Shown here piece after piece: positions 33,887 to 47,531 of a DNA stretch of 64,000 nt. The stretch spans positions 62,001 to 126,000 of the forward strand of contig JAKVJJ010000001.1 in NCBI GenBank assembly GCA_022487055.1, read 5' to 3'. The DNA comes from Oscillospiraceae bacterium (lineage in GTDB: Bacteria > Bacillota > Clostridia > Oscillospirales > Acutalibacteraceae). Each line of letters begins with the position of its first letter. Position 1 is the first letter of the stretch. The translations under genes and the position numbers were made by a program. The notes beneath the pieces were generated by a model. The model was not told where the DNA came from and did no database searches. It saw only the letters and a list, made by a program, of their open reading frames with translations.

Positions 33887-36697
33887 ATGCCAAACAATAT
33901 CCTGACCAAATTCTTCGGGAATTACAGCAAGCGCGAGCTGAAGCGTGTGAAGCCAATCTGCGATGCTGTTTTGGCACTCGAAGACAAGTATAAAAAATTA
34001 TCCGATGAGGAACTGCAGGCACAGACACCTGCCCTGAAGGAACGGCTGGCAAACGGCGAAAGTCTGGATGACATCTTGCCAGACGCCTTTGCTGTCTGCC
34101 GTGAAGCGGGCGCCCGTGTGCTGGAAATGCGTCACTTCCCCGTGCAGGTCATCGGCGGCATTGTGCTGCATCAGGGCCGCATCGCTGAGATGAAGACCGG
34201 CGAAGGCAAAACGCTGGTTGCCACCCTGCCAGCCTATCTGAATGCCCTTGCAGGCAAGGGAGTCCATATTGTCACGGTCAATGATTATCTGGCACGCCGT
34301 GACAGTGAGTGGATGGGCAAAGTCTACCGCTTTCTCGGCCTGTCCGTTGGTCTGATTACCCATGAAAAGGACAACGCTGCCCGCAAAGAAGCTTATAACG
34401 CCGACATTACTTACGGCACAAACAATGAGTTTGGCTTTGATTACCTGCGTGACAACATGGTCATCTACAAAGAGGACAAGGTGCAGCGCGGCCACAGCTT
34501 TGCCATTGTGGATGAGGTGGATTCCATCCTGATTGATGAGGCGCGTACGCCGCTGATTATTTCCGGCCCGGGCGAAAAGTCCACGGAAATGTACACAGTC
34601 GCCGACCGCTTTGCTCAGACGCTGAAAGAAGTCAAGGTTGCGGAACTGGACGACAAAGAGGACAATGATGCCCTGTATAAGGACGCAGATTACATTGTCG
34701 ATGAAAAGGCAAAGACCGCTACCCTTACCCCATCTGGCGTGAAAAAGGCTGAGGAATACTTCCATGTGGACAACCTTACCGATGCCGAGAACATCGGTCT
34801 GCAGCACTATGTGACACAGGCAATCAAGGCACGCGGTGTTATGACACGCGACGTGGACTATGTGGTAAAAGACGGCGAAGTCATTATCGTGGATGAATTC
34901 ACCGGACGTTTGATGTATGGCCGCCGCTACAATGAAGGTCTGCATCAGGCTATCGAGGCCAAGGAAGGCGTAACCGTCGCGCGTGAAAGCAAGACGCTGG
35001 CAACCATCACCTTCCAGAACTACTTCCGTTTGTATGACAAGCTCTCCGGCATGACCGGTACCGCTATGACAGAGGAAGACGAATTCCGTGAAATCTATAA
35101 ACTGGATGTCATTGAAGTCCCGACCAACAAGCCCATGATTCGTGAGAACTTGCATGATGTCGTCTATAAGACCGAAAAGGCAAAGTTCAATGCGGTTATC
35201 GACGACATTGTGGAGCACCACGAGAAAGGACAGCCGGTTCTGGTCGGCACCATTTCCATTGAAAAGAGTGAGCAGCTCTCCAAACTGCTGAAGCAGCGCG
35301 GGATTAAGCACGTTGTCTTGAACGCCAAGTACCATGAAAAGGAAGCAGAAATCGTTGCGCAGGCCGGTAAACAGAACGCTGTGACGATTGCGACCAACAT
35401 GGCTGGCCGTGGTACAGATATTATGTTGGGCGGCAACAGTGAGTATATGGCGAAGGCCGAGATGCGCCGCATGGGCTTCAGCTCGGAACTGATTGCACAA
35501 GCAACGGCTTACGGGGAGACCGATGATGTCGATGTTCTGAATGCCCGCGACACTTTCCAGAAGCTGGAAGATAAATACAAAGAGCAGATTAAGCCGGAAG
35601 CCGAAGCAGTGCGCAAGGCCGGCGGTCTGTATATTATCGGCACCGAGCGCCATGAATCCCGCCGTATCGACAACCAGCTGCGTGGTCGTTCTGGCCGTCA
35701 GGGTGACCCCGGTATGTCCCGCTTCTATATTTCACTGGAAGACGACTTGATGCGTCTGTTTGGTGGCGAGCGCGTTGCCGCAATGATGGAAACCCTGAAT
35801 GTGGATGAAGACACGCCGATTGAAAACAAGATGCTGACCAGGACTATTGAGAATGCACAGCGCAAGATTGAGGGACGTAACTTTGGTATTCGTAAAGATG
35901 TGCTGAAGTATGACGACGTCAATTCCCGTCAGCGTGAGATTATCTATAAGCAGCGTGACCAGGTGCTGAACGGCGAAAACGTACATACACAGGTCATGGA
36001 AATGATTAAGCAGGCAATCGAGAATCAGGTGAAGGTCTACCTGCCGATGGATGAGTCCAATCTGGACAACCCGCGCCATAACTGGAATATGAGCGGCCTG
36101 CGTGACCGTTACATGGGCTGGCTCTTGACGGATGCTGACCTTACCTATACAGATGAGGAAATGAAGAAGCTGAAGCCGGAGGATGTTTCCAAGACGCTGT
36201 ATGAGAAGGCAGAAGTCATTTGCAAGCAGCGCGAGGAACAGTTCGGTGACCAGATTTGCAGTGAACTGGAACGCGTTATCTTGCTGAAGAATGTGGATAC
36301 CGAGTGGATGGATCATATCGATGCAATGGAAGAACTTCAGCGCGGCATTCGGCTGCGTGCTTATGGCCAAAAAGACCCCGTGGTTGAATATCGTATGGAA
36401 AGTTTCGATATGTTTGATGCCATGATTGACACCATCCGTGAAAACACCGCCCGCATGATGCTGACGGTTCGCCTGCATACACAGGAGGAACCGCAGCGTG
36501 AAAAGGTCATGGAGCCGACTGTTGCTTCCGGTGCGTCGGAGGGAGAAGAATCGGATATCCAGACAGAGGAACACCCCGGCCAGCATAAAATCGGCCGCAA
36601 TGAACCTTGCCCCTGTGGCAGCGGCCTGAAGTGGAAAAAGTGTACCTGTGCCAAGTATCATCCGGCAGACGGAAGTCAGCCGTATGTTAATGACTGA
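33887..36697 (+). CDS. secA: Preprotein translocase ATPase SecA
   Basis: A 936-residue motor that drives secretory proteins through SecYEG. NBD1: [20 protein letters not shown] (Walker A), then [20 protein letters not shown] (DEAD-box and helicase motif II). The preprotein cross-linking domain occupies about 230-370, NBD2 contains [15 protein letters not shown] and [12 protein letters not shown], and the helical scaffold follows. The C-terminal zinc motif [17 protein letters not shown], which binds SecB or lipids in relatives, is present. Length is at the long end of the family owing to the linker before that motif. GAGG lies upstream of the ATG. It ends in a strong hairpin. prfB, often downstream of secA, is not adjacent. 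Confidence 0.98.
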
Positions 36698-36715
36698 GAA
36701 AAGATAGCAAAATGG

Positions 36716-36758
36716 AACAAAGGAGCCGGGCATAGCTTGATGCCACGGCTCCTTTGTT
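36716..36758 (+). terminator. Terminator after secA
   Basis: A perfect 13-bp stem (36716-36728 with 36746-36758) with an inner GGCAT/ATGCC. Only short T-runs are present, inside the right arm. Confidence 0.8.
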
Positions 36759-36789
36759 ATACAATATGTTGATTATACTATTTGTATAA
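36757..36789. repeat. Inverted repeat around the promoter of the gene at 36816
   Basis: TTATACAA (36757-36764) and TTGTATAA (36782-36789), 17 bp apart; the right copy overlaps a TATAAT -10 (36785-36790). Possible operator. Confidence 0.45.
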
Positions 36790-36815
36790 TTTGGCTTGTG
36801 TGCGGGAGGAAGAAA

Positions 36816-37103
36816 ATGAACTTGGAAATATTGCCGATGTTTATGATCGGCATCGTCAGCAGTTTGATTTATTATCAGACAGACAAGAAAAAACAGCTTT
36901 TTCAGAAGTGCTGTGAAAAATTTCATGTTAGTGGCAGGCGGCTGGCCGTGTGCAGCCTGCTCATCCTTCTAGTGGCGACTGTGCTGTTGAAGCTGCTCAG
37001 TCTGGCGGTTGACTGGCCGGACAGTGTTTGGTATGCACTGACTGGTGTTCCCTTTGGCTGGGCACTGTTTACCGCAAGCCATAAAAAAACGAATCAAAAA
37101 TAA
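36816..37103 (+). CDS. Small membrane protein (95 aa), hypothetical
   Basis: A 95-residue protein with probably three hydrophobic segments: residues 3-22 (LEILPMFMIGIVSSLIYY), about 46-67 (AVCSLLILLVATVLLKLLSL) and about 75-88 (YALTGVPFGWALF), with a basic tail HKKTNQK. ATG 36816 follows GGGAGG by 7 nt; an upstream in-frame start at 36798 lacks a site. No family recognised. It lies between secA and the convergent fba gene, with its own promoter and an inverted repeat over the -10. Confidence 0.65.
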   Translation: MNLEILPMFMIGIVSSLIYYQTDKKKQLFQKCCEKFHVSGRRLAVCSLLILLVATVLLKLLSLAVDWPDSVWYALTGVPFGWALFTASHKKTNQK

Positions 37104-37147
37104 AAAAACAGACCTTTGGTTTGAAACCGAAGGTCTGTTTTTATTTT
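37102..37147. terminator. Bidirectional terminator between small membrane gene and fba
   Basis: An 11-bp perfect stem (37106-37116 with 37130-37140) extended inward by GGTTT/AAACC, flanked by A-run and T-run. Confidence 0.88.
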
Positions 37148-37153
37148 GCAAAC

Positions 37154-38092
37154 TCAGGCTTTGCCGTTGCAGCCCATCACGTCCACAATCTTGTGAGCAA
37201 CCATTTCTTTCACTGCCTGACGTGCAGGAGCGAGATACTGGCGTGGGTCGAAGTGGTCCGGATGGTCATGGAAGTACTTGCGGATGTTTGCAGTCATAGC
37301 AAGACGAATATCGGAATCGACGTTAATCTTGCAGACAGCCATCTTAGCAGCCTTGCGCAGTTCACTCTCCGGAATACCGATTGCGTTCGGCATATTGCCG
37401 CCGTTTTCGTTAATAATCTTTACGAATTCCTGCGGAACACTGGATGCACCGTGCAGAACGATTGGGAAGCCGGGCAGACGGTCTGCCACTTCCTGCAGAA
37501 TGTCCAAACGGAGTTTTGGATCCTGGCCGGGTTTAAACTTGTATGCGCCGTGGCTGGTGCCAATAGCGATTGCGAGGCTGTCCACACCGGTGCGCTTAAC
37601 AAAGTCCTGCACCTGATCCGGGTCTGTATACATTGCCTTGTCCGCTTCCACGGAAACTTCATCCTCAACACCGCCCAGGGTGCCCAGCTCAGCTTCAACG
37701 GTTACATTGTATTTGTGTGCGTATTCCACGACCTTGGAAGCCTCGGCAACATTCTCCTCATAAGGCTTGGAGGAACCATCGAACATAACGGAAGTAAAAC
37801 CGTCATCCACGCATGCTTTGCACATCTCAAAAGACGGGCCGTGATCCAGATGCAGCACAATCGGGATGTCCGGGTTCTCAGCAACAGCGGCTTCCACCAG
37901 CTTGACCAAGTAGGTCGGGTTGGCGTAAGCGCGTGCACCTTTAGAAACCTGCAGAATCACAGGAGCTTTTAGCTCGCCGGCAGCTTCTGTGATACCCTGG
38001 ATAATCTCCATGTTGTTCACGTTAAAAGCACCGATAGCGTAACCGCCCTCATAAGCTTTTTTGAACATTTCCTTAGTGTTTACTAATGCCAT
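37154..38092 (-). CDS. fba: Class II fructose-1,6-bisphosphate aldolase
   Basis: A 312-residue zinc-dependent aldolase that cleaves fructose-1,6-bisphosphate to DHAP and glyceraldehyde-3-phosphate. Motifs: GAFNVNNMEIIQGI at the start, VLHLDHGPSFEMC with catalytic Asp and zinc His, VEAELGTLGGVED with zinc/active Glu, IAIGTSHGAYKF with zinc His, PIVLHGASSVP with the third zinc His and substrate loop, and CKINVDSDIRLAMT for phosphate. ATG 38092 has GGAGT-type spacing; the upstream extension (12 residues) is not supported. With mgsA in the same window, this supports DHAP-centred glycolysis. Confidence 0.96.
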   Translation of the reverse strand: MALVNTKEMFKKAYEGGYAIGAFNVNNMEIIQGITEAAGELKAPVILQVSKGARAYANPTYLVKLVEAAVAENPDIPIVLHLDHGPSFEMCKACVDDGFTSVMFDGSSKPYEENVAEASKVVEYAHKYNVTVEAELGTLGGVEDEVSVEADKAMYTDPDQVQDFVKRTGVDSLAIAIGTSHGAYKFKPGQDPKLRLDILQEVADRLPGFPIVLHGASSVPQEFVKIINENGGNMPNAIGIPESELRKAAKMAVCKINVDSDIRLAMTANIRKYFHDHPDHFDPRQYLAPARQAVKEMVAHKIVDVMGCNGKA

Positions 38093-38126
38093 GGTTTTCA
38101 CACTCCTAATCAATTTTAGCAGTTCC

Positions 38127-38155
38127 ATTATACAACACTTCCGCGAAAAAAGAAA
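38127..38155 (-). promoter_or_regulatory. Possible promoter of fba
   Basis: Minus strand TATAAT (38132-38127) with a weak -35 TTTCTT at 17-nt spacing. Confidence 0.45.
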
Positions 38156-38191
38156 CAGACAATCGTTAAAAATTTATCGTGTCGGAAGAAG

Positions 38192-38965
38192 TCAGGGATG
38201 GCGTCGGGCATAATCAAAAATATACTGCTGGGCTAGTCCTGCCGCCGGACCGAAATCTGCCGGATTCACACCGGGAAACCACTGTTTCATAGCGCGTTTC
38301 ATCCAGACATCCATGGGGAAAGCTTCCATGCGGTGAAGTCCATATAATAAAGTACAGTCAGCAACCTTTGGTCCCACGCCGACAATTTGCATCAGAGACG
38401 CGCGCGCTTCTGCCAGTGGAGCGGTGCGCAGTTCCTCCAGATTTACTGTGCCGTCTGTCACTTTTCGGGCGGCGTCCAACACATATCTTGCCCGAAATCC
38501 GCACCGAAGCGGAGCCAGCGCATCCACCGAAAGTCCCGCCAGCGCTTCTGGTCTTGGAAACGGGTGCGCTGCCGGTCCTTCCTGCAGTTTTGTGCAGGGC
38601 GGCATGGTGTCATCCTCGCCGCACAGCCGGGAAATAATCCCTTGAATTCTGGGGATATTATTGTTTTGAGACAAAATGAAGGAACACAGAGCTTCCCATG
38701 GGTCTTGCCGCAGAATATGGATGCCAGCACCGCAAACGGCGGCTTCCCGCAGATTTGGGTGCAGATTTGCCAGTGTTTGATTGAAGGTTTGATAATCGGT
38801 GTCCATATCAAAATACTGCCGCCAAAAAGGATTTTTTGTGAGCGGCGGGATGTCCTGCTGTGTCAGTGTGACAGAACGGCCGCCGACGGTGCCGCAGAAA
38901 ACATCCGGCGCAATTTCTTTCCACCGAAAACACTGTCCACACAGAAGCGTTTTGCGCAGATTCAA
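38192..38965 (-). CDS. ogg: 8-oxoguanine DNA glycosylase (OGG1 family)
   Basis: A 257-residue base-excision repair enzyme with the OGG1-type domain order. The N-terminal LLCGQCFRW leads into the beta sheet, then the helical domain with FILSQNNNIPRIQGIISRLC, and the helix-hairpin-helix MQIVGVGPKVADC, whose lysine is the Schiff-base nucleophile, followed by FPMDVWMKRAM with the catalytic Asp. It removes oxidised guanine and nicks the strand. The start is TTG 38965 with GGAGG 8 nt upstream. The N-terminus is slightly shorter than in most relatives. Confidence 0.9.
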   Translation of the reverse strand: MNLRKTLLCGQCFRWKEIAPDVFCGTVGGRSVTLTQQDIPPLTKNPFWRQYFDMDTDYQTFNQTLANLHPNLREAAVCGAGIHILRQDPWEALCSFILSQNNNIPRIQGIISRLCGEDDTMPPCTKLQEGPAAHPFPRPEALAGLSVDALAPLRCGFRARYVLDAARKVTDGTVNLEELRTAPLAEARASLMQIVGVGPKVADCTLLYGLHRMEAFPMDVWMKRAMKQWFPGVNPADFGPAAGLAQQYIFDYARRHP

Positions 38966-39209
38966 AAGGTCTGCCTCCTTTCAAGGAATGTAATTTGTAA
39001 AATAACGGAAATGAATCAGACAAAAATAACGTATTTCAATGAATTGTAAAAAATGTTATAATATCTCGGAAATCATGTCACAATTAGGCGAAGAATAGGG
39101 ACATTATACGCCGAAAATACAGAAAGTTAAAGACATTTTTCAAATTTAGTTTACATAATATTGTTTTCACCAATAGTGAATATTTATCGGAAGCGCTTAC
39201 TCAAGCAGT

Positions 39210-39378
39210 CTTTCAACACTTTCAACAGAGTTTTCCACACTCTCCACATTGTTTTCGACAAGTATTATGTAAACCTATGAAAATACGAAGTGTATAAACG
39301 CCGGTTTGACGCAAAATCTGGGATGTATACTGCCGGCTGACCCGTGCGCTGCCGCCTGAGTATTCCACATATTCCACA
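39210..39378 (+). repeat. Head-to-tail 9-mer repeats resembling DnaA boxes
   Basis: Group 1: CTTTCAACA (39210), CTTTCAACA (39219), TTTTCCACA (39231), CTCTCCACA (39240), TTTTCGACA (39252). Group 2: TATTCCACA (39361) and TATTCCACA (39370). Starts step by 9 or 12 bases. TTTTCCACA fits the DnaA consensus TTWTNCACA and the others are one to three changes away. This is a candidate DnaA-binding or titration site, or an unknown operator array. Confidence 0.55.
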
Positions 39379-39483
39379 GGGAAAACTTTTTTAGTCGAAA
39401 ACATAGTAACCTTGTGTCACATCGCTGTATATCTTTTCCTTTTCACAAATTTTCTGAAAGAACGTGCAGGAACGGCAGCCTTG

Positions 39484-39492
39484 TGGTATAAT
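39484..39492 (+). promoter_or_regulatory. Extended -10 promoter of rlmB
   Basis: TGGTATAAT, 36 nt before ATG 39528; the -35 is weak. An in-frame ATG at 39501 would be nearly leaderless. Confidence 0.5.
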
Positions 39493-39527
39493 CAATTATT
39501 ATGGGAAAAGTATCTGGAGGAGCCAAA

Positions 39528-40310
39528 ATGAGAGATAATCAAATGGAACAAACAGACCGTGTGCGCGGCGATGATATTATTGCCGGACGCAACGCAGTAA
39601 TGGAAGCACTGAAAAGCGGACGCACACTGGAGGCACTTTATATAGGACGCGGACAGCATGGCGGCAGCTTGGGGGCTATCGTTGCCCGTGCAAAGGATGC
39701 TGGGCTACCGATTAAGGAAGCCGACCTGCGCAAGCTGGATGCCATGTGCAATGGCGCTGCCCATCAGGGTGTGGTTGCAGTGGCAGCTGTCAAAGAATAT
39801 GCAACCTTGGATGATGTGTTTGCTTTGGCAGAGGAGCGTGGCGAGCCGCCATTCCTCATTGTGGCCGATGGACTGGAGGACCCTCATAACCTGGGAGCGG
39901 TGCTGCGTGTGGCAGAGTGCGCGGGTGCACATGGCGTGATCATTCCGAAACGCCGCAGTGTGGGACTGACCTATGCTGTGGGCAAAGCAAGCGCCGGCGC
40001 GGTGGAATATGTGCCGGTGGTGCGCGTCAACAACCTTGCCTCTGTATTGGACGAGCTGAAAAAGCGCGGGGTGTGGCTGTATGCCGCTGATATGGGCGGC
40101 GAACCGTGGTGCAATGTGGACTATGCGGGGCCATGCGCTGTGGTCATTGGCAGCGAGGGCTTTGGTGTTGGCCGCCTGATTAAGGAAAAATGTGATTTTG
40201 TAGTTTCACTGCCGATGAAAGGAAAGATAAATTCGCTGAACGCTTCCGTCGCCTGTGGCGTAGTGTGCTATGAAGTGGCACGGCAGCGTGCGGGAATCCA
40301 CTCCAAGTAA
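39528..40310 (+). CDS. rlmB: 23S rRNA (guanosine(2251)-2'-O)-methyltransferase RlmB
   Basis: A 260-residue SpoU-class (SPOUT, trefoil-knot) methyltransferase. The N-terminal L30e-like substrate domain (GDDIIAGRNAVMEAL) precedes the knotted domain with motif 1 DPHNLGAVLRVAECAGAHGV, motif 2 VIGSEGFGVGRL and motif 3 LPMKGKINSLNASVACGV. It methylates G2251 in the ribosomal P-loop. GGAGGAG before ATG 39528 decides the start. In many Firmicutes this gene follows cysS and the ribonuclease-III-like mrnC; here it follows an intergenic region, and the degenerate P-type-ATPase-like gene lies 19 bp downstream. Confidence 0.92.
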   Translation: MRDNQMEQTDRVRGDDIIAGRNAVMEALKSGRTLEALYIGRGQHGGSLGAIVARAKDAGLPIKEADLRKLDAMCNGAAHQGVVAVAAVKEYATLDDVFALAEERGEPPFLIVADGLEDPHNLGAVLRVAECAGAHGVIIPKRRSVGLTYAVGKASAGAVEYVPVVRVNNLASVLDELKKRGVWLYAADMGGEPWCNVDYAGPCAVVIGSEGFGVGRLIKEKCDFVVSLPMKGKINSLNASVACGVVCYEVARQRAGIHSK

Positions 40311-40329
40311 GAAAGTGGGGCAAAGCAGG

Positions 40330-43300
40330 ATGGACGATAAGAAAATCAGCACAGGAACTCCGACCGAAAATCCAGAGGAACCAGTCGCAGATGCGATGGC
40401 TTTTTCCTCCAGCGCTAAAAAAGAGCGGGAGAAAGAAGAAGAGGAGCGGCGCCGTGCCGAGCAGGAGGAGGAACGCCAATTTTTGGAACAGCGGCGTGCC
40501 GAAAGAGCAGCTGCCCAGCATCGGGGACCGGAGCCACCGGAAAACCATTGGGCAGAAGAATTGGAATCCAACCGTAAAGAGAAAAAAGCCAGCCTGAAAA
40601 AGCAGGATAAAATAAAACGCCGCAGCAACAAAAAGAAATTTTCCGAGAAAAAAGACCCCTATTACGGACTGGAACTGAAGCCGCTGGAGGTTTATCAGAA
40701 AGAATATGAGGAAACTCTGTCCTTTAAACCGGTGCGGCCAGAGGAACAGCCCAGCGAAATGACCGGTACATTCACTTATCTCTTTGACGGAAGTAAACCG
40801 GAAGAATCAGACCCGGAACTTTCCAAAAAAGTGCAGAAAATGCATGAAGAACGCCGCCGCCGTGTAAAAGAGGTAGTGCACAAAAGCGGTTCCAGCGATG
40901 TTGCCAAAGAGGACATTTATTCTATTACAACGGCGATCAGTCTGGACGAGATTCGTAAAGAAGCCGCCAAAAAAGGTGTGACGGTCCCTACGGAAAGGTT
41001 CACCGCATCCGGCACAAATAAGAACGACCGTCCTTCGGTGAAAGAACCGGAGAGTATACCGCAGAAACCGGAGAAGGAAGTACAATCTTCTCCGCCGGTG
41101 CAGGAGCCGCAGGAACGCCCACAGCCGGTGAAAGCGGTACAGGAACCGCAGACTGAGATGCATTGTGCGCAGTCCGGCGAACCAGTGGGCTATCGGCCAA
41201 CAGGTACGCCGGTACATATTGTTAACCTGCAGGATTTGATTACGCCGATTTTTAATGAATCGCGGGGATATCCCAAGTCGATTTCTCCCTCTCGGGAACA
41301 GCCAGTGCTGCTTGTGCAGACAGCAAAACCGGTTGAAACCGAAATCAATTCTGACGCGGAAGTAGCTGCCAAACCTGCTGCGTCACAGCCGGAGGAGGAG
41401 CACGACGAAGCCGAGCGGCCGCAATCCGCACCGGTCGTTCCTTTCCGCCAAAAAGATGAAATGGCAGAGCCACCGGAAACAAAGTCAGAGAAATCGGCCC
41501 ATGTGTCGGACTCGTTTATGGCCGGAGCAACCGAAACGGAACCGGAGCAGCCACCTGCTGCCGAAATTCCTGTACCTGCTGTTGATAAGGCTGTACCGCC
41601 GGAACAGACATCCTACCGTCTGTATGGAGAAGCGGCACGGGCAATGGTGCAGGATATTACTTCGGAAGAATCGGAAGAGAAGGCACCGGAAAAGCCGCGT
41701 CGGAAGATTCTGCATAAAATGCCGGTTATTCAGCCTGTAGCGCAGACACAAAAAACAGAACAGACTGATGATACGACGTCACAGCCGGAGAAACCGGTAC
41801 AGGCTGCGGTTCCGGTTGAAGACGAGCTGGATGATTATAATAAGCCGGAGGACGCCGCCCCCATTTTTCATCAGCTTGGCGGTGACCTGCGAGAGCTGAT
41901 GTTGCGCCTGACCGTAACGGGAATCTGCGGCATGATAGAAGCCATCTTTGGCTGCCTTGGTGAATATGGCTTGTTTGGGCTGCGACCGATCAATATTACC
42001 GTCTACCTTATTTGTAACCTGATTTTCCTTTCCATTGCAGTCGGTTTTTGCGGCGTGACTGTGCTGAATGGCCTGAAAGCGCTGGTGAAGCTGCGTGCCA
42101 ATGCGGATTCCGGCGTGGCTGTAGCGAGCATTATCGGTATGATGCAGAGCATTGCATCGCTATTTTACCAGAACACCTTTGCGCATGGAGAATTGCACCT
42201 GTATTCCGTCATCATCTGCGCTGCCTTGTTCCTGAATACACTGGGCAAGTGGACACTGGTGCGCCGTGTGAATAAGAATTTCCATTATATTACTTCACCG
42301 GATAAAAAGTATTCCGTTGAAAAATTCAATGACCACAATACCGCACTGCAGATGGCCGAAGGAGTAACACTGGATTCTCCCGAGATTGCCTATCAGCAGG
42401 AAGCGGATTCTCTGAAACATTTTCTGCGTCTGTCTTATAGTGACGACCCGAGTGACCGCAGCAGTCAGTTCCTTGCACCGGTGCTTTTCTGTGCGAGTTT
42501 GGTGCTGTTCCTTGTCATGTTGTTGCTGATTCAGCCTTATAATGTGAACAGCGCGCTCACGGCATTTGCCGCGGCGACCTGCGTGAGTGTGCCAATTATG
42601 AATATGCTGTCCGTTAATCTGCCGCTGACACGTATCAGCAAGGTAGCGGCACAGTGCGGCGGCATGGTTATCGGGTTCCCGGCGGTGCAGTATTTTGCGG
42701 ACACCAATGCGGTTATGGTGGATGCGCAGGATTTGTTCCCGAAGGGAAGTGTCATCCTGAATGGCATTAAAACTTTCGGCAGTGCACAGATGGACGATGC
42801 CATTGTTGACGCGGCCGCACTGATGCACGCAGCCGGAGGGCCACTGAGCAGCCTGTTTGGCCAGATTATCCGCAGCCGTCAGGAAGCAATGCCAAAAGTG
42901 GAAAATGTGCAGTACGATGACGGTATGGGTATTTCCGGTTGGGTTGGCGGCAGGCGGGTGTTTATTGGCAACCGCCGCCTGATGAGCCACCACAACATCA
43001 CACCGCCGAGTGAGAATCTGGAGGCAAAGTATCTGCAGGGCGGCAAGCAGATTGCATATTTGTCTGTCAGCGGCGAACTGATGGCGATGTTTATCGTCAG
43101 TTATCGCGCTGACCGGCACCGCACGGTTGAGTTGCAGCGGATGGAGGATAATGGCATTTCACTGATTGTGCGCAGCAATGATCCAAATGTGACGGCACCG
43201 TTTATTTCGGCCCTGTTTGGTCTGGATGTGCACACCGTGCGTGTTCTGCCGGAACGTCTGGGGCAGGTATATGAATCACTGGGAAAGCAGCCGGAAAAGG

Positions 43301-43554
43301 AAACGAATGCGCTGATGGCAACAAACGGCCGGCCCAGCACGATGATGCGTTTAATTACCGCGTGTGCGCGCCAGCGTGCGAATATTTCTATTGCGGTTGT
43401 TCTGCAGAATGTCGGCGCGATTCTCGGGTTTGTGCTGGTGGCATTTCTGTGCTGTCAGAAGGGAATGCAGCAAGTCAATACGCTAAGCATGGTTTTGTAT
43501 GAGCTTTTCTGGGTTTTGGCTATTTGGCTGGTTCCTAAACTTCGCCGTCCTTGA
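40330..43554 (+). CDS. Degenerate P-type-ATPase-like membrane protein with long disordered N-terminus
   Basis: A 1,074-residue protein. Residues 1 to about 510 are cytosolic, highly charged and disordered (Glu/Lys-rich at the start, then Pro/Glu/Gln-rich). From about 530 there are helices laid out like P1B-type ATPases. The helix-6 metal motif CPC is replaced by TCVSVP; the phosphorylation motif DKTGTLT by D798-AQDLFP, so the Asp aligns but KTGT is gone; the N-domain keeps a recognisable GISGWVGGRRVFIGNRRLM (867-885); TGDN becomes VRSNDPN (947-953); and the hinge GDGINDA becomes TNGRPST. It should therefore not pump by the P-type cycle. It may be a scaffold or sensor. It is probably cotranscribed with rlmB. 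Confidence 0.82.
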   Translation: MDDKKISTGTPTENPEEPVADAMAFSSSAKKEREKEEEERRRAEQEEERQFLEQRRAERAAAQHRGPEPPENHWAEELESNRKEKKASLKKQDKIKRRSNKKKFSEKKDPYYGLELKPLEVYQKEYEETLSFKPVRPEEQPSEMTGTFTYLFDGSKPEESDPELSKKVQKMHEERRRRVKEVVHKSGSSDVAKEDIYSITTAISLDEIRKEAAKKGVTVPTERFTASGTNKNDRPSVKEPESIPQKPEKEVQSSPPVQEPQERPQPVKAVQEPQTEMHCAQSGEPVGYRPTGTPVHIVNLQDLITPIFNESRGYPKSISPSREQPVLLVQTAKPVETEINSDAEVAAKPAASQPEEEHDEAERPQSAPVVPFRQKDEMAEPPETKSEKSAHVSDSFMAGATETEPEQPPAAEIPVPAVDKAVPPEQTSYRLYGEAARAMVQDITSEESEEKAPEKPRRKILHKMPVIQPVAQTQKTEQTDDTTSQPEKPVQAAVPVEDELDDYNKPEDAAPIFHQLGGDLRELMLRLTVTGICGMIEAIFGCLGEYGLFGLRPINITVYLICNLIFLSIAVGFCGVTVLNGLKALVKLRANADSGVAVASIIGMMQSIASLFYQNTFAHGELHLYSVIICAALFLNTLGKWTLVRRVNKNFHYITSPDKKYSVEKFNDHNTALQMAEGVTLDSPEIAYQQEADSLKHFLRLSYSDDPSDRSSQFLAPVLFCASLVLFLVMLLLIQPYNVNSALTAFAAATCVSVPIMNMLSVNLPLTRISKVAAQCGGMVIGFPAVQYFADTNAVMVDAQDLFPKGSVILNGIKTFGSAQMDDAIVDAAALMHAAGGPLSSLFGQIIRSRQEAMPKVENVQYDDGMGISGWVGGRRVFIGNRRLMSHHNITPPSENLEAKYLQGGKQIAYLSVSGELMAMFIVSYRADRHRTVELQRMEDNGISLIVRSNDPNVTAPFISALFGLDVHTVRVLPERLGQVYESLGKQPEKETNALMATNGRPSTMMRLITACARQRANISIAVVLQNVGAILGFVLVAFLCCQKGMQQVNTLSMVLYELFWVLAIWLVPKLRRP

Positions 43555-43671: not shown

Positions 43672-43699
43672 ACCGGATACAGTTTGTATCCGGTTTTTT
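43672..43699 (+). terminator. Terminator after the P-type-like gene
   Basis: ACCGGATAC (43672-43680) with GTATCCGGT (43686-43694), loop of five, then six T. Confidence 0.92.
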
Positions 43700-43769: not shown

Positions 43770-44300
43770 ATGAAGAAGGAACCGATGCGAACGCAGGTGT
43801 TCATGGAAGGTGCAGTGAAACGGTTCGGCGCGCCTGTATATCGATTGGCGCTGATGCACACACAAAACCGCACGGATGCCGAAGATGTTTTTCAGGAAAC
43901 CTTTTTGCGGCTGTATCTGGATGGCACATCTTTTGCCGGCACAGAACATTTGAAAGCTTGGTTGTTGCAGGTGACTGTGAACGTTTGTCATGACCTGCAT
44001 CGCAGTGCGTGGAATCGCCGCCGCGCGGATTTATCAGAGGATGTTCCAATTCCATTTGAAACAGAGGAGGATTCCGGCCTTTGGACAGCCGTTGCCGGTC
44101 TGCCGAAAAAGTACCGTGATGTCATCCATCTGCACTATCAGGAAGGATATTCCGCTGAGGAAATCGGAAATATCCTTCACCGCAAGACCTCGACCGTGCG
44201 CGCGCAAATGTGTCGTGCCCGTAAGCTGCTGAAAACCAAGATGGGAGGATTTTATCATGAAGAACAAGTATCAGAAAATGTGCAGTCAAATCATGCCTGA
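43770..44300 (+). CDS. ECF-type RNA polymerase sigma factor
   Basis: A 176-residue sigma-70 family factor with only regions 2 and 4. Region 2 includes VYRLALMHTQNRTDAEDVFQETFLRLY (shown in parts: NRTDAEDVFQETFLRLY is the core-binding and -10 region), and region 4 is LPKKYRDVIHLHYQEGYSAE followed by the helix-turn-helix RKTSTVRAQMCRARKLLK. GGAG precedes the ATG. The next gene starts 44 bp before this stop and encodes a single-pass membrane protein, the classical arrangement of an ECF sigma with its anti-sigma factor. The stimulus is unknown; given the wall-related neighbourhood, envelope stress is possible. Confidence 0.88.
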   Translation: MKKEPMRTQVFMEGAVKRFGAPVYRLALMHTQNRTDAEDVFQETFLRLYLDGTSFAGTEHLKAWLLQVTVNVCHDLHRSAWNRRRADLSEDVPIPFETEEDSGLWTAVAGLPKKYRDVIHLHYQEGYSAEEIGNILHRKTSTVRAQMCRARKLLKTKMGGFYHEEQVSENVQSNHA

Positions 44301-45249
44301 TGATGCCCTGACTGAGCAAACACTGCATCAGTTTACCGGTGTGCCGCTGAAACAGCACAAGCGCCGCCGGGTGTGGAAACCAGTGGCCATTACAGCCGCT
44401 GCCCTTGTGTTTGCGGTTGCTTTTCCGCTTACCCAGCCCGGAGTTGGATATATTATTCCTAATGATAATGGGAAAGACATGGTGACCACCGGCGCAAAAA
44501 ACAGTTTTGGTCTGGCGGCATACGCGGCAGATGGTAAACTGACGGTTGCGGCAAACGGCAGCCAAGTTGTGTTTGGCGGTGCAGCAGGCACATGTGGTTT
44601 CAAAAGTGGTTCTACGATTGAAGACTTATTTCATGTTGCAGGCACAAATATTGCGCAGCTCGACATGAGCATTGACCGCGGGGAACTGACACGCTATGAA
44701 ATGGTCACGAAAAAAATTTTCGACGCGCAGTTAGGCGGCACTGACCGTTTCCTTCAATCTGAGGTAAAGACAAAAGGAATAGACGAGAATTTTACAGATA
44801 TAACGTCTGAGAATAAAGATTCGCTGACGCTGAACTTTGGCGAGGTCAAGCGGATGGGTAAGCACTTCACCATGCCTTATGAGCAGCAGTATTATTTTGG
44901 CCTCTTTATTCCTGCCGCAGACGCAGCAAAGCTTGCGCCTTTAACAGATAAACAGTTGATAAGACTTGGCTATAAATATGATTCCATAGCCCTATTCGCC
45001 AGTGATGAAAAGACCGGTGTGGTAAAGGCAAAACAGTTTTTTGACGGAGCCACCATTACCATGAAGGTAACGTATTTGAATGGGCATACTGAAACCAAAA
45101 GACTACATTTGAAAGCTGGAAATAAGGCTTTCCGATACACAAAAAATTGGAGCAAAAAACCCACGCCGTTTTTCACTTACGCGGTGCCAAAAGGGCAGGC
45201 AACAAGCAAGGATTATTCTGATTATGTCATTTATGCTGACATTGCCTGA
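44257..45249 (+). CDS. Putative membrane anti-sigma factor (DUF4179-like)
   Basis: A 330-residue protein with a cytosolic part of about 45 residues, one transmembrane helix (about 46-64, PVAITAAALVFAVAFPL) and an exported domain of about 260 residues with alternating beta strands (YFGLFIPAADAAKLAPL, TITMKVTYLNGHTETKRL). Size, topology and overlap with the ECF sigma gene mark it as its anti-sigma factor. The cytosolic part lacks a zinc-binding HxxxCxxC, so it is of the zinc-free RsgI/DUF4179 kind. GGGAGG precedes the ATG inside the sigma gene. The exported domain is the likely sensor. Confidence 0.75.
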   Translation: MKNKYQKMCSQIMPDDALTEQTLHQFTGVPLKQHKRRRVWKPVAITAAALVFAVAFPLTQPGVGYIIPNDNGKDMVTTGAKNSFGLAAYAADGKLTVAANGSQVVFGGAAGTCGFKSGSTIEDLFHVAGTNIAQLDMSIDRGELTRYEMVTKKIFDAQLGGTDRFLQSEVKTKGIDENFTDITSENKDSLTLNFGEVKRMGKHFTMPYEQQYYFGLFIPAADAAKLAPLTDKQLIRLGYKYDSIALFASDEKTGVVKAKQFFDGATITMKVTYLNGHTETKRLHLKAGNKAFRYTKNWSKKPTPFFTYAVPKGQATSKDYSDYVIYADIA

Positions 45250-45416: not shown

Positions 45417-45476
45417 ACGAGTATCATTTAAGAAAATATTTGTTAAAAATTACTGCTAATGAAGGGGGCATCATCC

Positions 45477-47531
45477 TTGAAACTGTATCATGCGAAAAAT
45501 ATACTCAACATTGCCTTAATGGGGCACGCAGGTGCTGGCAAAACAAGTATTGCGGAAGCCATGCTTCGTCTTTCCGGTGCGGCTGAGCGGCTGGGAAAAG
45601 TCAGCGATGGCACCACAGTCTGTGATTATGACACCGAGGAAATTCGCCGCAAAGCAAGTATTTCCGCCGCCGTCGCTCCAATGGAGTGGAAGGGATGCAA
45701 AATCAATTTATTGGACACACCGGGCCTGTTTGACTTTGCGGGTGCCGCCGCCGAGGCTGTGCGCGCTGCCGACAGTGTGGTGATTGCCGTAAGTGGCCGT
45801 AACGGGGTAGCGGTCGGCACGGAAAAGGCAGTGGAAGCGGCAGAAACACGCGGCTTGGCAAAGGTGTTTTTTGTGAACGGGCTGTGTGATGAAAGTGCGC
45901 GTTTCTATCATGTATTTGAGGACTTAAAGGCAAAGTTCGGGCCTGCGGTCTGCCCGGTCGTGGTGCCATATTTTGAGGATGGCAAAGCCGACATTTACAT
46001 AAATTTACTGGAGTACAAAGCATATGATTACTCCGACGGCGCACCTGTTGAGGTGGATATGCCGGATATGGGTGACCACAGACTGCAAGGACTGCGCACA
46101 GCAATTTGTGAAGCAGTCGCGGAAACAAGCGATGAACTTTTTGAAAAATATTTTTCCGGCCAGGAGTTTACACCGGAAGAAATTATCGTTGGTATCTCCA
46201 AAGGTGTCAAAGCCGGTACCGTCCTGCCTGTTTTTTGCGGAGACGCACTTCTGATGCACGGTATGGAGCAATTTTTGGACGGCATTACATGGCTGCTGCC
46301 GAGAGCTGCGGACAAAGCGGGGGAAATTGGCACAGACATGAATGGCGACCCGGTGGAATTAGCAATCAATGAAGATGCTGCCACAGCGGCACTTTGCTTC
46401 AAGACGATTGTAGACCCATTTGTCGGTAAAGTGAGCTTTTTAAAATGCATATCCGGAAAAGTGAATCAGGACAGCAGCTTGCTGGATATGCGAACCGGCG
46501 CTTCGGAGCACATTGGCAAAGTGATGCTTATGCGCGGCAAAAAGCAGGAGGAAATGCCTGCAATTCCGGCCGGCGACATTGGCGCGGTGCTGAAGCTTTC
46601 CGGCGTTTCCACCGGGGATACGCTGTGCGCGCCTTCCAGAAAATTGGCACTGGACGGCATTGATTATCCGACACCGGTTCTGCGTATGGCAATCGTGCCG
46701 AAAAAACGCGGAGAGGAAGATAAGATTGCGCAGGCAGTCCAGCGTATGATAGAGGAAGATCCAACTTTGCAGTTTGAAAATAATGCGGAAACACATGAAA
46801 TGGTCATTTCCGGATTGGGGGAGCAGCATTTGGATGTGGTGCTTGCGAAACTGCAGAACCACAGCGGTGTGGAAGCCGAACTGAGAGTGCCCCGTATTCC
46901 GTATCGGGAAACCATACGCAAAGCGGTGAAAGTGCAGGGACGCTATAAAAAGCAAACGGGCGGTCATGGGCAATTCGGCGATGTCTGGATTGAGTTCAGT
47001 CCGTGCGACAGCAATGAACTGGTCTTTGATGAAAAAGTGGTTGGCGGCAGTGTACCGAAAAGCTATTTCCCGGCGGTGGAAAAAGGGCTGCGGGAATGCA
47101 CCGCGAAAGGGCCGTTTGCCGGTTATCCGGTGGTTGGGCTGCACGCGACTCTTTATGATGGCTCTTATCATCCGGTGGACAGCTCGGAAATGTCCTTTAA
47201 AACAGCGGCAGCGCTGGCTTACAGAGCCGGTATGCCACAGGCGGAGCCAATTTTATTAGAGCCAATCGGCACACTGCGGGCAACCGTGCCGGACAGCAGC
47301 ATGGGAGATATCATGGGCGCTGTCACCAAGCGCCGTGGGCATGTGCTGGGCATGGAGTCGGCAAAAGCAGGTTTTCAGATTGTTACGGCAGAGGCACCGG
47401 AAGCAGAAATGACAGACTTTTCGGTATTCCTTCGTCAGGTAACACAGGGACGCGGTTCTTTCAGCTTCCGCTTTGCACGGTACGAGCCGTGCCCGCCGCA
47501 GATTGCGCAGAACGTGCCAAAACAGGCGTAA
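45477..47531 (+). CDS. Elongation factor G-like GTPase (EF-G paralogue)
   Basis: A 684-residue paralogue of EF-G with domains G, II, III, IV and V. G1 GHAGAGKTS is at residues 16-24 and G3 DTPGLFDF is intact; switch I reads IRRKASISAA instead of ERGITITSAA, as in the TM1651-like EF-G group. G4, normally NKMD, reads NGLC in FFVNGLCDESARF, so guanine specificity is doubtful. Domain IV contains KQTGGHGQFGDVWIEF and domain V SSMGDIMGAVTKRRGHVLGM. The start is TTG 45477, since AAGGGGG (45462-45468) lies 8 nt before it. Role unknown: back-up or ribosome recycling factor. Confidence 0.88.
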   Translation: MKLYHAKNILNIALMGHAGAGKTSIAEAMLRLSGAAERLGKVSDGTTVCDYDTEEIRRKASISAAVAPMEWKGCKINLLDTPGLFDFAGAAAEAVRAADSVVIAVSGRNGVAVGTEKAVEAAETRGLAKVFFVNGLCDESARFYHVFEDLKAKFGPAVCPVVVPYFEDGKADIYINLLEYKAYDYSDGAPVEVDMPDMGDHRLQGLRTAICEAVAETSDELFEKYFSGQEFTPEEIIVGISKGVKAGTVLPVFCGDALLMHGMEQFLDGITWLLPRAADKAGEIGTDMNGDPVELAINEDAATAALCFKTIVDPFVGKVSFLKCISGKVNQDSSLLDMRTGASEHIGKVMLMRGKKQEEMPAIPAGDIGAVLKLSGVSTGDTLCAPSRKLALDGIDYPTPVLRMAIVPKKRGEEDKIAQAVQRMIEEDPTLQFENNAETHEMVISGLGEQHLDVVLAKLQNHSGVEAELRVPRIPYRETIRKAVKVQGRYKKQTGGHGQFGDVWIEFSPCDSNELVFDEKVVGGSVPKSYFPAVEKGLRECTAKGPFAGYPVVGLHATLYDGSYHPVDSSEMSFKTAAALAYRAGMPQAEPILLEPIGTLRATVPDSSMGDIMGAVTKRRGHVLGMESAKAGFQIVTAEAPEAEMTDFSVFLRQVTQGRGSFSFRFARYEPCPPQIAQNVPKQA

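Follow-up and report, generated by a model that had tools for sequence, protein, structure and literature searches.

A P1B-type ATPase descendant that lacks the defining pump motifs is conserved across a bacterial order

What would a bacterium keep the body of a P-type ATPase for when the residues that drive transport are gone? The question is raised by a large open reading frame in a 64,000 nucleotide (nt) stretch of DNA (the window) from Oscillospiraceae bacterium, contig JAKVJJ010000001.1, positions 62,001 to 126,000. The original prediction, made from the sequence alone, took the product for a pseudo-enzyme derived from a P1B-type ATPase. This is borne out and applies more widely than was claimed, as the protein belongs to a family found throughout an order of gut-type Clostridia, which we take to be the Oscillospirales of GTDB, and held under purifying selection. 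The family descends from P1B pumps, yet it is no pump by its defining motifs; the ancestral pump was probably CopA-like. As to what the protein does, we lean towards an ancient, vertically kept, non-catalytic P1B descendant that serves as a membrane adaptor, with docking at the N-domain and a flexible tail.

Homology of the protein core to P1B pumps, as judged from sequence, is far above chance. The NCBIfam CopA model matches residues 709–988 (E-value = 2.6e-19) and TIGR01525 matches residues 709–975 (4e-14), both with scores far under the curated cut-offs, and a sequence match is found to LpCopA in Protein Data Bank entry 3rfu (E-value = 1.3e-16). The window protein has no significant Pfam match. 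Pfam P-type or HAD models each match at most 2 of 67 family members, and the NCBIfam CopA model at an E-value of 0.001 matches 57 of the 67.

Structure predictions point the same way. AlphaFold was given a 67-row alignment (A1, the window protein and 66 rows distinct enough to be kept, from 71 candidate rows picked at 55% identity) and yielded a model of the window core with a predicted local distance difference test (pLDDT) of 94.9 and a predicted template modelling score (pTM) of 0.91, a high confidence that may partly reflect familiarity of the fold. A distant member, L125, which is 19% identical to the window protein, gives a pLDDT of 88.5 and a pTM of 0.86. The window core superimposes best, among the chains compared, on 3rfu_A (Z = 25.1, root mean square deviation (rmsd) 8.8, 491 aligned residues, 17% identity). 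For L125 P1B pumps are again the best among the chains compared, with Z = 24.4, rmsd 9.2 and 481 aligned residues for 3rfu_A. The models can be read as eight membrane helical segments, a split P-domain and a full N-domain, with helices 4 and 5 separated by what appears to be a small remnant instead of the actuator (A) domain. The segment order is tail, membrane, P, N, P, membrane. The approximately 500-residue tail, the P1B segment order and the motif GISGWVGGRRVFIGNRRLM named in the original prediction are present, and the A-domain is only a remnant of about 50 residues. A structure prediction without the P-, N- and A-domain arrangement had been named as evidence that would overturn the proposal; the models go halfway there, because P- and N-domains are present and the A-domain is largely missing.

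The motifs were followed through the family in approximately 6–18 kb of DNA flanking each of 89 matches from other genomes and in six loci from contigs of named genomes. Ninety-six proteins were found; L037, which shares a contig with L044, and L069, with its broken frame, were dropped, and L121 was retained with its 3′ part missing. The motif counts rest on the resulting 94 rows, not on all 193 order genomes carrying the family; some rows are nearly identical, and a few (e.g. L051, L086) have no tail. In alignment with two true pumps of the host genome, none of the motifs DKTGT, TGE, CPC, SEHPL and GDGxND is found in register with CopA in any row (0/94 each). The GDG letters face gaps in 94/94 rows and TGE faces gaps in at least 91, therefore the A-domain and GDGxND segments are deleted. 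DKTGT and GDGxND are absent at any position of the 94 cores, so that the motif loss, which the original prediction had proposed to check in related genomes, is consistent there. Orthologues with an intact DKTGT, the other finding named as one that would overturn the proposal, did not turn up among the 94 rows. TGE letters occur out of register in 11/94 cores and TGD in 9/94, scattered; in three cores (L083, L107, L110) TGE lies within the region of the A remnant, in surroundings unlike those of the motif. These letters are taken as chance.

The sequences standing in for the lost motifs are themselves patterned. At the DKTGT site Asp is left in 48/94 rows and Lys in none, and the last four positions of the replacement read [DE][LI][FY]P, in 84, 82, 89 and 70 of the 94 rows. 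The TGD site keeps its Asp in 91/94 rows and its Gly in none, with the consensus TxDxNIT. The CPC site keeps its Pro in 83/94. The original prediction had placed CVSVP, DAQDLFP and RSNDPN at the CPC, DKTGT and TGD sites, and the alignment with CopA agrees with it. TNGRPST, offered there as a worn GDGINDA, is not the counterpart of that motif; GDG faces gaps throughout, and TNGRPST lies on a later strand. In favour of a pump that is still active through an atypical catalytic site are the acidic residue in position four of the former DKTGT site (84/94) and the retained TGD Asp. With the phospho-Asp present in only about half of the rows, Lys in none and the dephosphorylating A-domain deleted, such a pump is highly improbable, and it was rejected on the motif losses across the 94 rows. 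Lacking both the A-domain and the motif for phosphorylation, the protein cannot run the normal pump cycle.

His and Glu of P1B N-domains hold ATP. At the SEHPL site of the family His is found in 0/94 rows and Glu in 4/94, with Pro in 63/94. Two N-domain glycines are kept in 93/94 and 94/94 rows, the Asn of GN in 55/94 and the first Gly of GxG in 36/94. Of the N-domain, which the original prediction found convincing, the two glycines are thus kept, and the His and Glu of SEHPL are gone in 94 and 90 rows. The nucleotide sensor suggested in the same place would have retained nucleotide binding (of ATP or another) in its N-domain and would signal through the tail. The fold, the two glycines, the good conservation of the domain, the Asn of GN and the TGD Asp are in keeping with it; the loss of His and Glu and the poorly kept GxG glycine weaken it, and we regard it as unlikely. 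The membrane adaptor remains the preferred reading, and the distribution of constraint bears on it.

Mean pairwise identities were obtained by region from 20 genomes yielding both CopA and a family protein, with hand-set limits for the CopA regions. In true CopA the values are 46.8 (membrane helices 1–4), 56.4 (A), 65.6 (helices 5–6), 60.3 (first part of P), 36.6 (N), 59.0 (second part of P) and 67.7 (helices 7–8). In the pseudo-pump family they are, in the same order, 15.7, 13.8, 21.1, 25.1, 23.3, 16.5 and 20.1. The pattern of constraint is thus turned round, since the N-domain ranks lowest of all regions in true CopA but is one of the two best conserved in the family. Relative entropy over 67 rows gives 1.78 bits for the N-domain, 1.62 for the first and 1.30 for the second part of the P-domain and 0.97–1.18 for the membrane regions, with strong single columns at W871, H888, Y910 and Y925 in the N-domain and at D951.

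These values also bear on a passive channel or carrier, in which the membrane bundle would let an ion or a small molecule pass with no use of ATP. The Pro of helix 6, a polar H/Q at core residue 107 and a Trp and a Gln in helix 8 are conserved, which speaks for it. The membrane regions, however, are the least conserved after the A remnant, and the metal-site motifs are lost, which makes this reading distinctly unlikely. One Cys of the CPC site is kept in 6/94 rows, and the copper-site YN and MxxSS are not retained in register, the alignment of helix 8 being gapped there. The same observations speak against the ion or metal sensor of the original prediction. The last helix of the 5–6 pair (259–276 in core numbering) is only weakly hydrophobic.

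The family is widespread in its order. A single-sequence search gave matches in 92 of 98 relatives, true pumps among them. With a family profile a strong match was found in 193 of 198 order genomes (best E-value 6.7e-59 or better); the remaining five (G379, G400, G409, G415, G512) show pump-level matches only, with best E-values from 6.1e-35 to 2.8e-22 and 3.0e-35 for G409. In a search of the class, 14 of 15 order genomes match nearly the entire profile at 317 bits or more, and the best score among 278 genomes outside the order is 143.6 bits; the outside matches listed in that search span approximately positions 213–500 of the profile, as true pumps do. A search of the phylum gave at most 127.9 bits in 117 genomes outside the order; G124 is common to both outside sets. 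A family-level match is absent from the 278 and 117 genomes sampled, but a distant homologue in other orders may have escaped notice, since only the best 4 (class), 6 (order) or 11 (phylum) first-look candidates were scored per genome and the span was read among the matches listed, the weakest order members not being among these. A relative at 83% identity is Ruminococcaceae bacterium UBA4871 (Clostridia, Oscillospiraceae in NCBI taxonomy).

The ratio of nonsynonymous to synonymous substitutions (dN/dS) of the core is approximately 0.02–0.16 over 12 close pairs (e.g. 0.014/0.57, 0.009/0.24, 0.109/0.70), a rough figure for pairs with near-saturated synonymous sites, and that of the tail approximately 0.04–0.40 over the 11 pairs having two tails. 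Constraint is strong on the core and moderate on the tail. That the family is conserved order-wide and under purifying selection is well supported. A recently decayed pump or pseudogene would explain the lost motifs and a broken frame in 2 of 95 loci. Order-wide conservation, low dN/dS and the absence of any homologue with intact motifs argue against decay, and this explanation is refuted to the point of being negligible. The two broken frames, in L069 (genome G081) and L121 (G070), may be assembly errors or real decay. As far as the sequences go, the marks of a pseudoenzyme are found together: a conserved fold, consistent loss of catalytic residues and purifying selection.

In the N-terminal tail of the window protein, residues 1–499 are hydrophilic, with 19.8% D+E, 15.6% K+R and 10.6% P, and fall on the disordered side of the charge-hydropathy line. 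Tail length, taken from open frames and so an upper bound, is highly variable; ahead of the core, 100 residues or more are present in 79 of 90 rows. Among 1272 neighbourhood proteins the motif [YF][ST][LVI][DE][DE]I[LIV]x[DE] was counted 17 times, always in the family, and a looser form lies close to the N-terminus in 30 of 91 members. YSLDEILAE is found in the first 20 tail residues of the same-genus relatives L049, L050 and L052, and 14 other members also carry a motif of this type. The motif may form a short helix recognized by one particular partner. As DNA, the FSLDDILxE-type motif has 26 exact matches in 96 genomes, against 7 for the reversed pattern. Eighteen of these are placed in family tails, two of which (L135 and L147) sit on short contigs and were assigned by their resemblance; the other 8, judged by eye, fall in unrelated proteins. 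A docking motif common to other proteins was considered and is weak, as the 18 matches indicate that the motif marks the family and not a shared partner.

Features of the locus (window positions)
Feature	Position	Strand	Remarks
rlmB-type SpoU methyltransferase gene	39501..40310	+	Pfam SpoU_methylase 4e-41, SpoU_sub_bind 1.7e-18
Whole pseudo-P1B gene	40330..43554	+	1074 aa, frame open
Charged, proline-rich N-terminal tail, residues 1–505	40330..41844	+	disorder predicted from composition
Membrane helices 1–4, residues 506–655	41845..42294	+	AlphaFold helices and hydropathy
A-domain remnant without TGE, residues 656–706	42295..42447	+	alignment and AlphaFold
Membrane helices 5–6, residues 707–775	42448..42654	+	AlphaFold and hydropathy
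CVSVP, at CPC site	42580..42594	+	alignment with CopA
DAQDLFP, at DKTGT site	42721..42741	+	alignment with CopA
N-domain, residues 806–925	42745..43104	+	AlphaFold and conservation; top region by relative entropy
N-domain motif GISGWVGGRRVFIGNRRLM	42928..42984	+	two glycines kept in family
P-domain second part, residues 926–1001, GDGxND segment deleted	43105..43332	+	alignment and AlphaFold
RSNDPN, at TGD site	43171..43188	+	alignment with CopA
TNGRPST, past the deletion, not facing GDGINDA	43321..43341	+	alignment with CopA
Membrane helices 7–8, residues 1002–1071	43333..43542	+	AlphaFold and hydropathy
Terminator-like stem with T run, 3′ of gene	43672..43694	+	consensus scan only

The start of the gene at 40330 (MDDKK) is backed by the same-genus relatives L043–L045, which begin MDDKK, MDDNK and MDEQK; the longest-frame start of the same open reading frame is 40270. 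The stop codon of rlmB lies 19 nt upstream of the start. The name rlmB comes from the original prediction and from resemblance, Pfam giving the SpoU family. Linkage to rlmB, a second point proposed for checking in relatives, is kept: in 87 of 95 loci rlmB immediately precedes the pseudo-pump gene in the same orientation (81 by a strict end test and 6 with a frame overlapping its end). In the other loci rlmB is two genes away (2), a contig edge intervenes (4) or none is in reach (2). In L099 and L101 two same-strand genes (approximately 711–759 and 573–609 amino acids (aa)) stand between rlmB and the pseudo-pump. SpoU-type matches in the five family-less order genomes are only 23–32% identical to the window rlmB; in eight loci with the family the identity is 44–65%. 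Thus rlmB and the pseudo-pump are missing together, by joint loss or by a joint assembly gap, and joint loss is favoured because two of the five genomes belong to one genus.

A second neighbour recurs less often. An EF-G paralogue with all EF-G domains by Pfam is located at 45459–47531 of the window, 1.9 kb behind the gene. Such a paralogue is near the family gene in 18 of 93 loci, including two far-off fragments; of the 16 full-length copies, 13 are within 500 nt, one of them on the opposite strand, and these 13 come from seven families of the order. No other neighbour comparable to these two was seen in the loci. An antisense cluster at position −1 in 14 loci was discarded, being by position a reverse frame of rlmB. 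In the window an ECF-type sigma factor and a 330-aa open reading frame without Pfam match follow one another at 43770–45249; the latter, by position, may be the anti-sigma partner. An Rfam scan of the window found nothing at gathering scores, and a PHROGs search was also negative.

Gene order weakly suggests, as a first guess, a role beside translation or ribosome assembly, because of the tight rlmB linkage and the frequent nearby EF-G paralogue. In its fuller form, the near-universal order protein would use its disordered arm to tie this machinery (RlmB, the EF-G paralogue or ribosomes) to the membrane, which we consider a tentative possibility. Gene order also bears on a possible role as regulatory subunit, in which the protein would associate with a genuine P-type pump (e.g. 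CopA) and modulate it. CopA exceeds the curated cut-off in 34 of 39 order genomes and has the same fold; five of the 39 have no CopA over the cut-off, and the conserved neighbour is rlmB, not a pump, so that this pairing seems quite improbable. The host genome has six sites with an E1-E2 ATPase domain, each having DKTGT and GDGxND, therefore the cell also has ordinary P-type pumps. On host contig C12, at approximately 36600–41300, two true P1B pumps (L031 and L035, frames of 866 and 624 aa) lie within 5 kb, and both keep CPC and intact motifs.

The membrane adaptor, which we favour with modest confidence, may be pictured as follows. Sequences and models show that the ancestral pump lost its actuator domain together with the GDGxND segment, the motif for phosphorylation and those of the metal site. 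The membrane bundle would now anchor the P/N lobe in the cytosol. Selection, seen as conservation, has shifted towards the N-domain, the strand with DLFP and the TxDxNIT loop, and the face formed by these may dock a protein partner. The long charged N-terminal tail could act as a flexible arm bringing partners to the membrane. The data suggest a second use for the body of the pump, as a platform for docking, and the shared P1B-like fold and shrunken A-domain predicted for two members only 19% identical are in support. The motif losses, the spread through the order, the low dN/dS of the core, the inverted constraint, the rlmB linkage, the absence of a close rlmB from the five family-less genomes and the nearly family-specific tail motif count in its favour as well. 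The membrane scaffold with a partner-recruiting tail of the original prediction is thus plausible and preferred, as something we infer. Several points weigh against it. The rlmB linkage may be co-expression only. The arm is not universal, since tails vary greatly and are shorter than 60 residues in 7 of 90 rows, and the strict tail motif is missing from the window protein and most members. Nor does the membrane part escape constraint: no column scores higher than W1061 of helix 8, the Pro at the CPC site (P755, helix 6) ranks high too, and a function within the membrane could still be accommodated.

Few pumps have been studied as thoroughly as the P-type ATPases, and the literature searched yielded no account of a free-standing, conserved, inactive member from bacteria. 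The family offers a naturally occurring example in which the body of a transporter persists without transport. Pfam models detect almost none of it, and annotation that relied on its faint resemblance to P1B pumps would lead to a false prediction of metal export. The partner of such a conserved pseudo-pump is directly testable. No description of a bacterial pseudo-P-type ATPase was found in the open-access literature, subscription papers not being covered, and the available part of a review (PMC10654040) names no inactive P-type ATPase member. The claim of the original prediction that no such system has been described met no counter-example among bacteria in that literature and has a precedent in malaria parasites.

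The P1B copper pumps (CopA, LpCopA in 3rfu, ATP7B) are like the family in overall fold, membrane helices and P- and N-domains. They differ in that the family is without in-register DKTGT, TGE, CPC, SEHPL and GDGxND, has an A-domain remnant and shows no metal-binding domain, with a long disordered tail in its place. Plasmodium guanylate cyclase beta carries a P4-ATPase domain termed degenerated in the available text of PMC6592433, and there also a P-type ATPase body appears retained in a signalling protein. That protein, as described, is eukaryotic, of P4 type and fused to a cyclase, whereas the family is bacterial, of P1B type and free-standing. PcrP, according to the accessible part of PMC12632274, is a non-catalytic HAD-superfamily protein that binds protein partners. 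The likeness to the family is a HAD fold without activity, in PcrP one that binds protein partners; PcrP differs, from what that part describes, in being a phosphonatase-like HAD protein with a cap domain and not a P-type ATPase.

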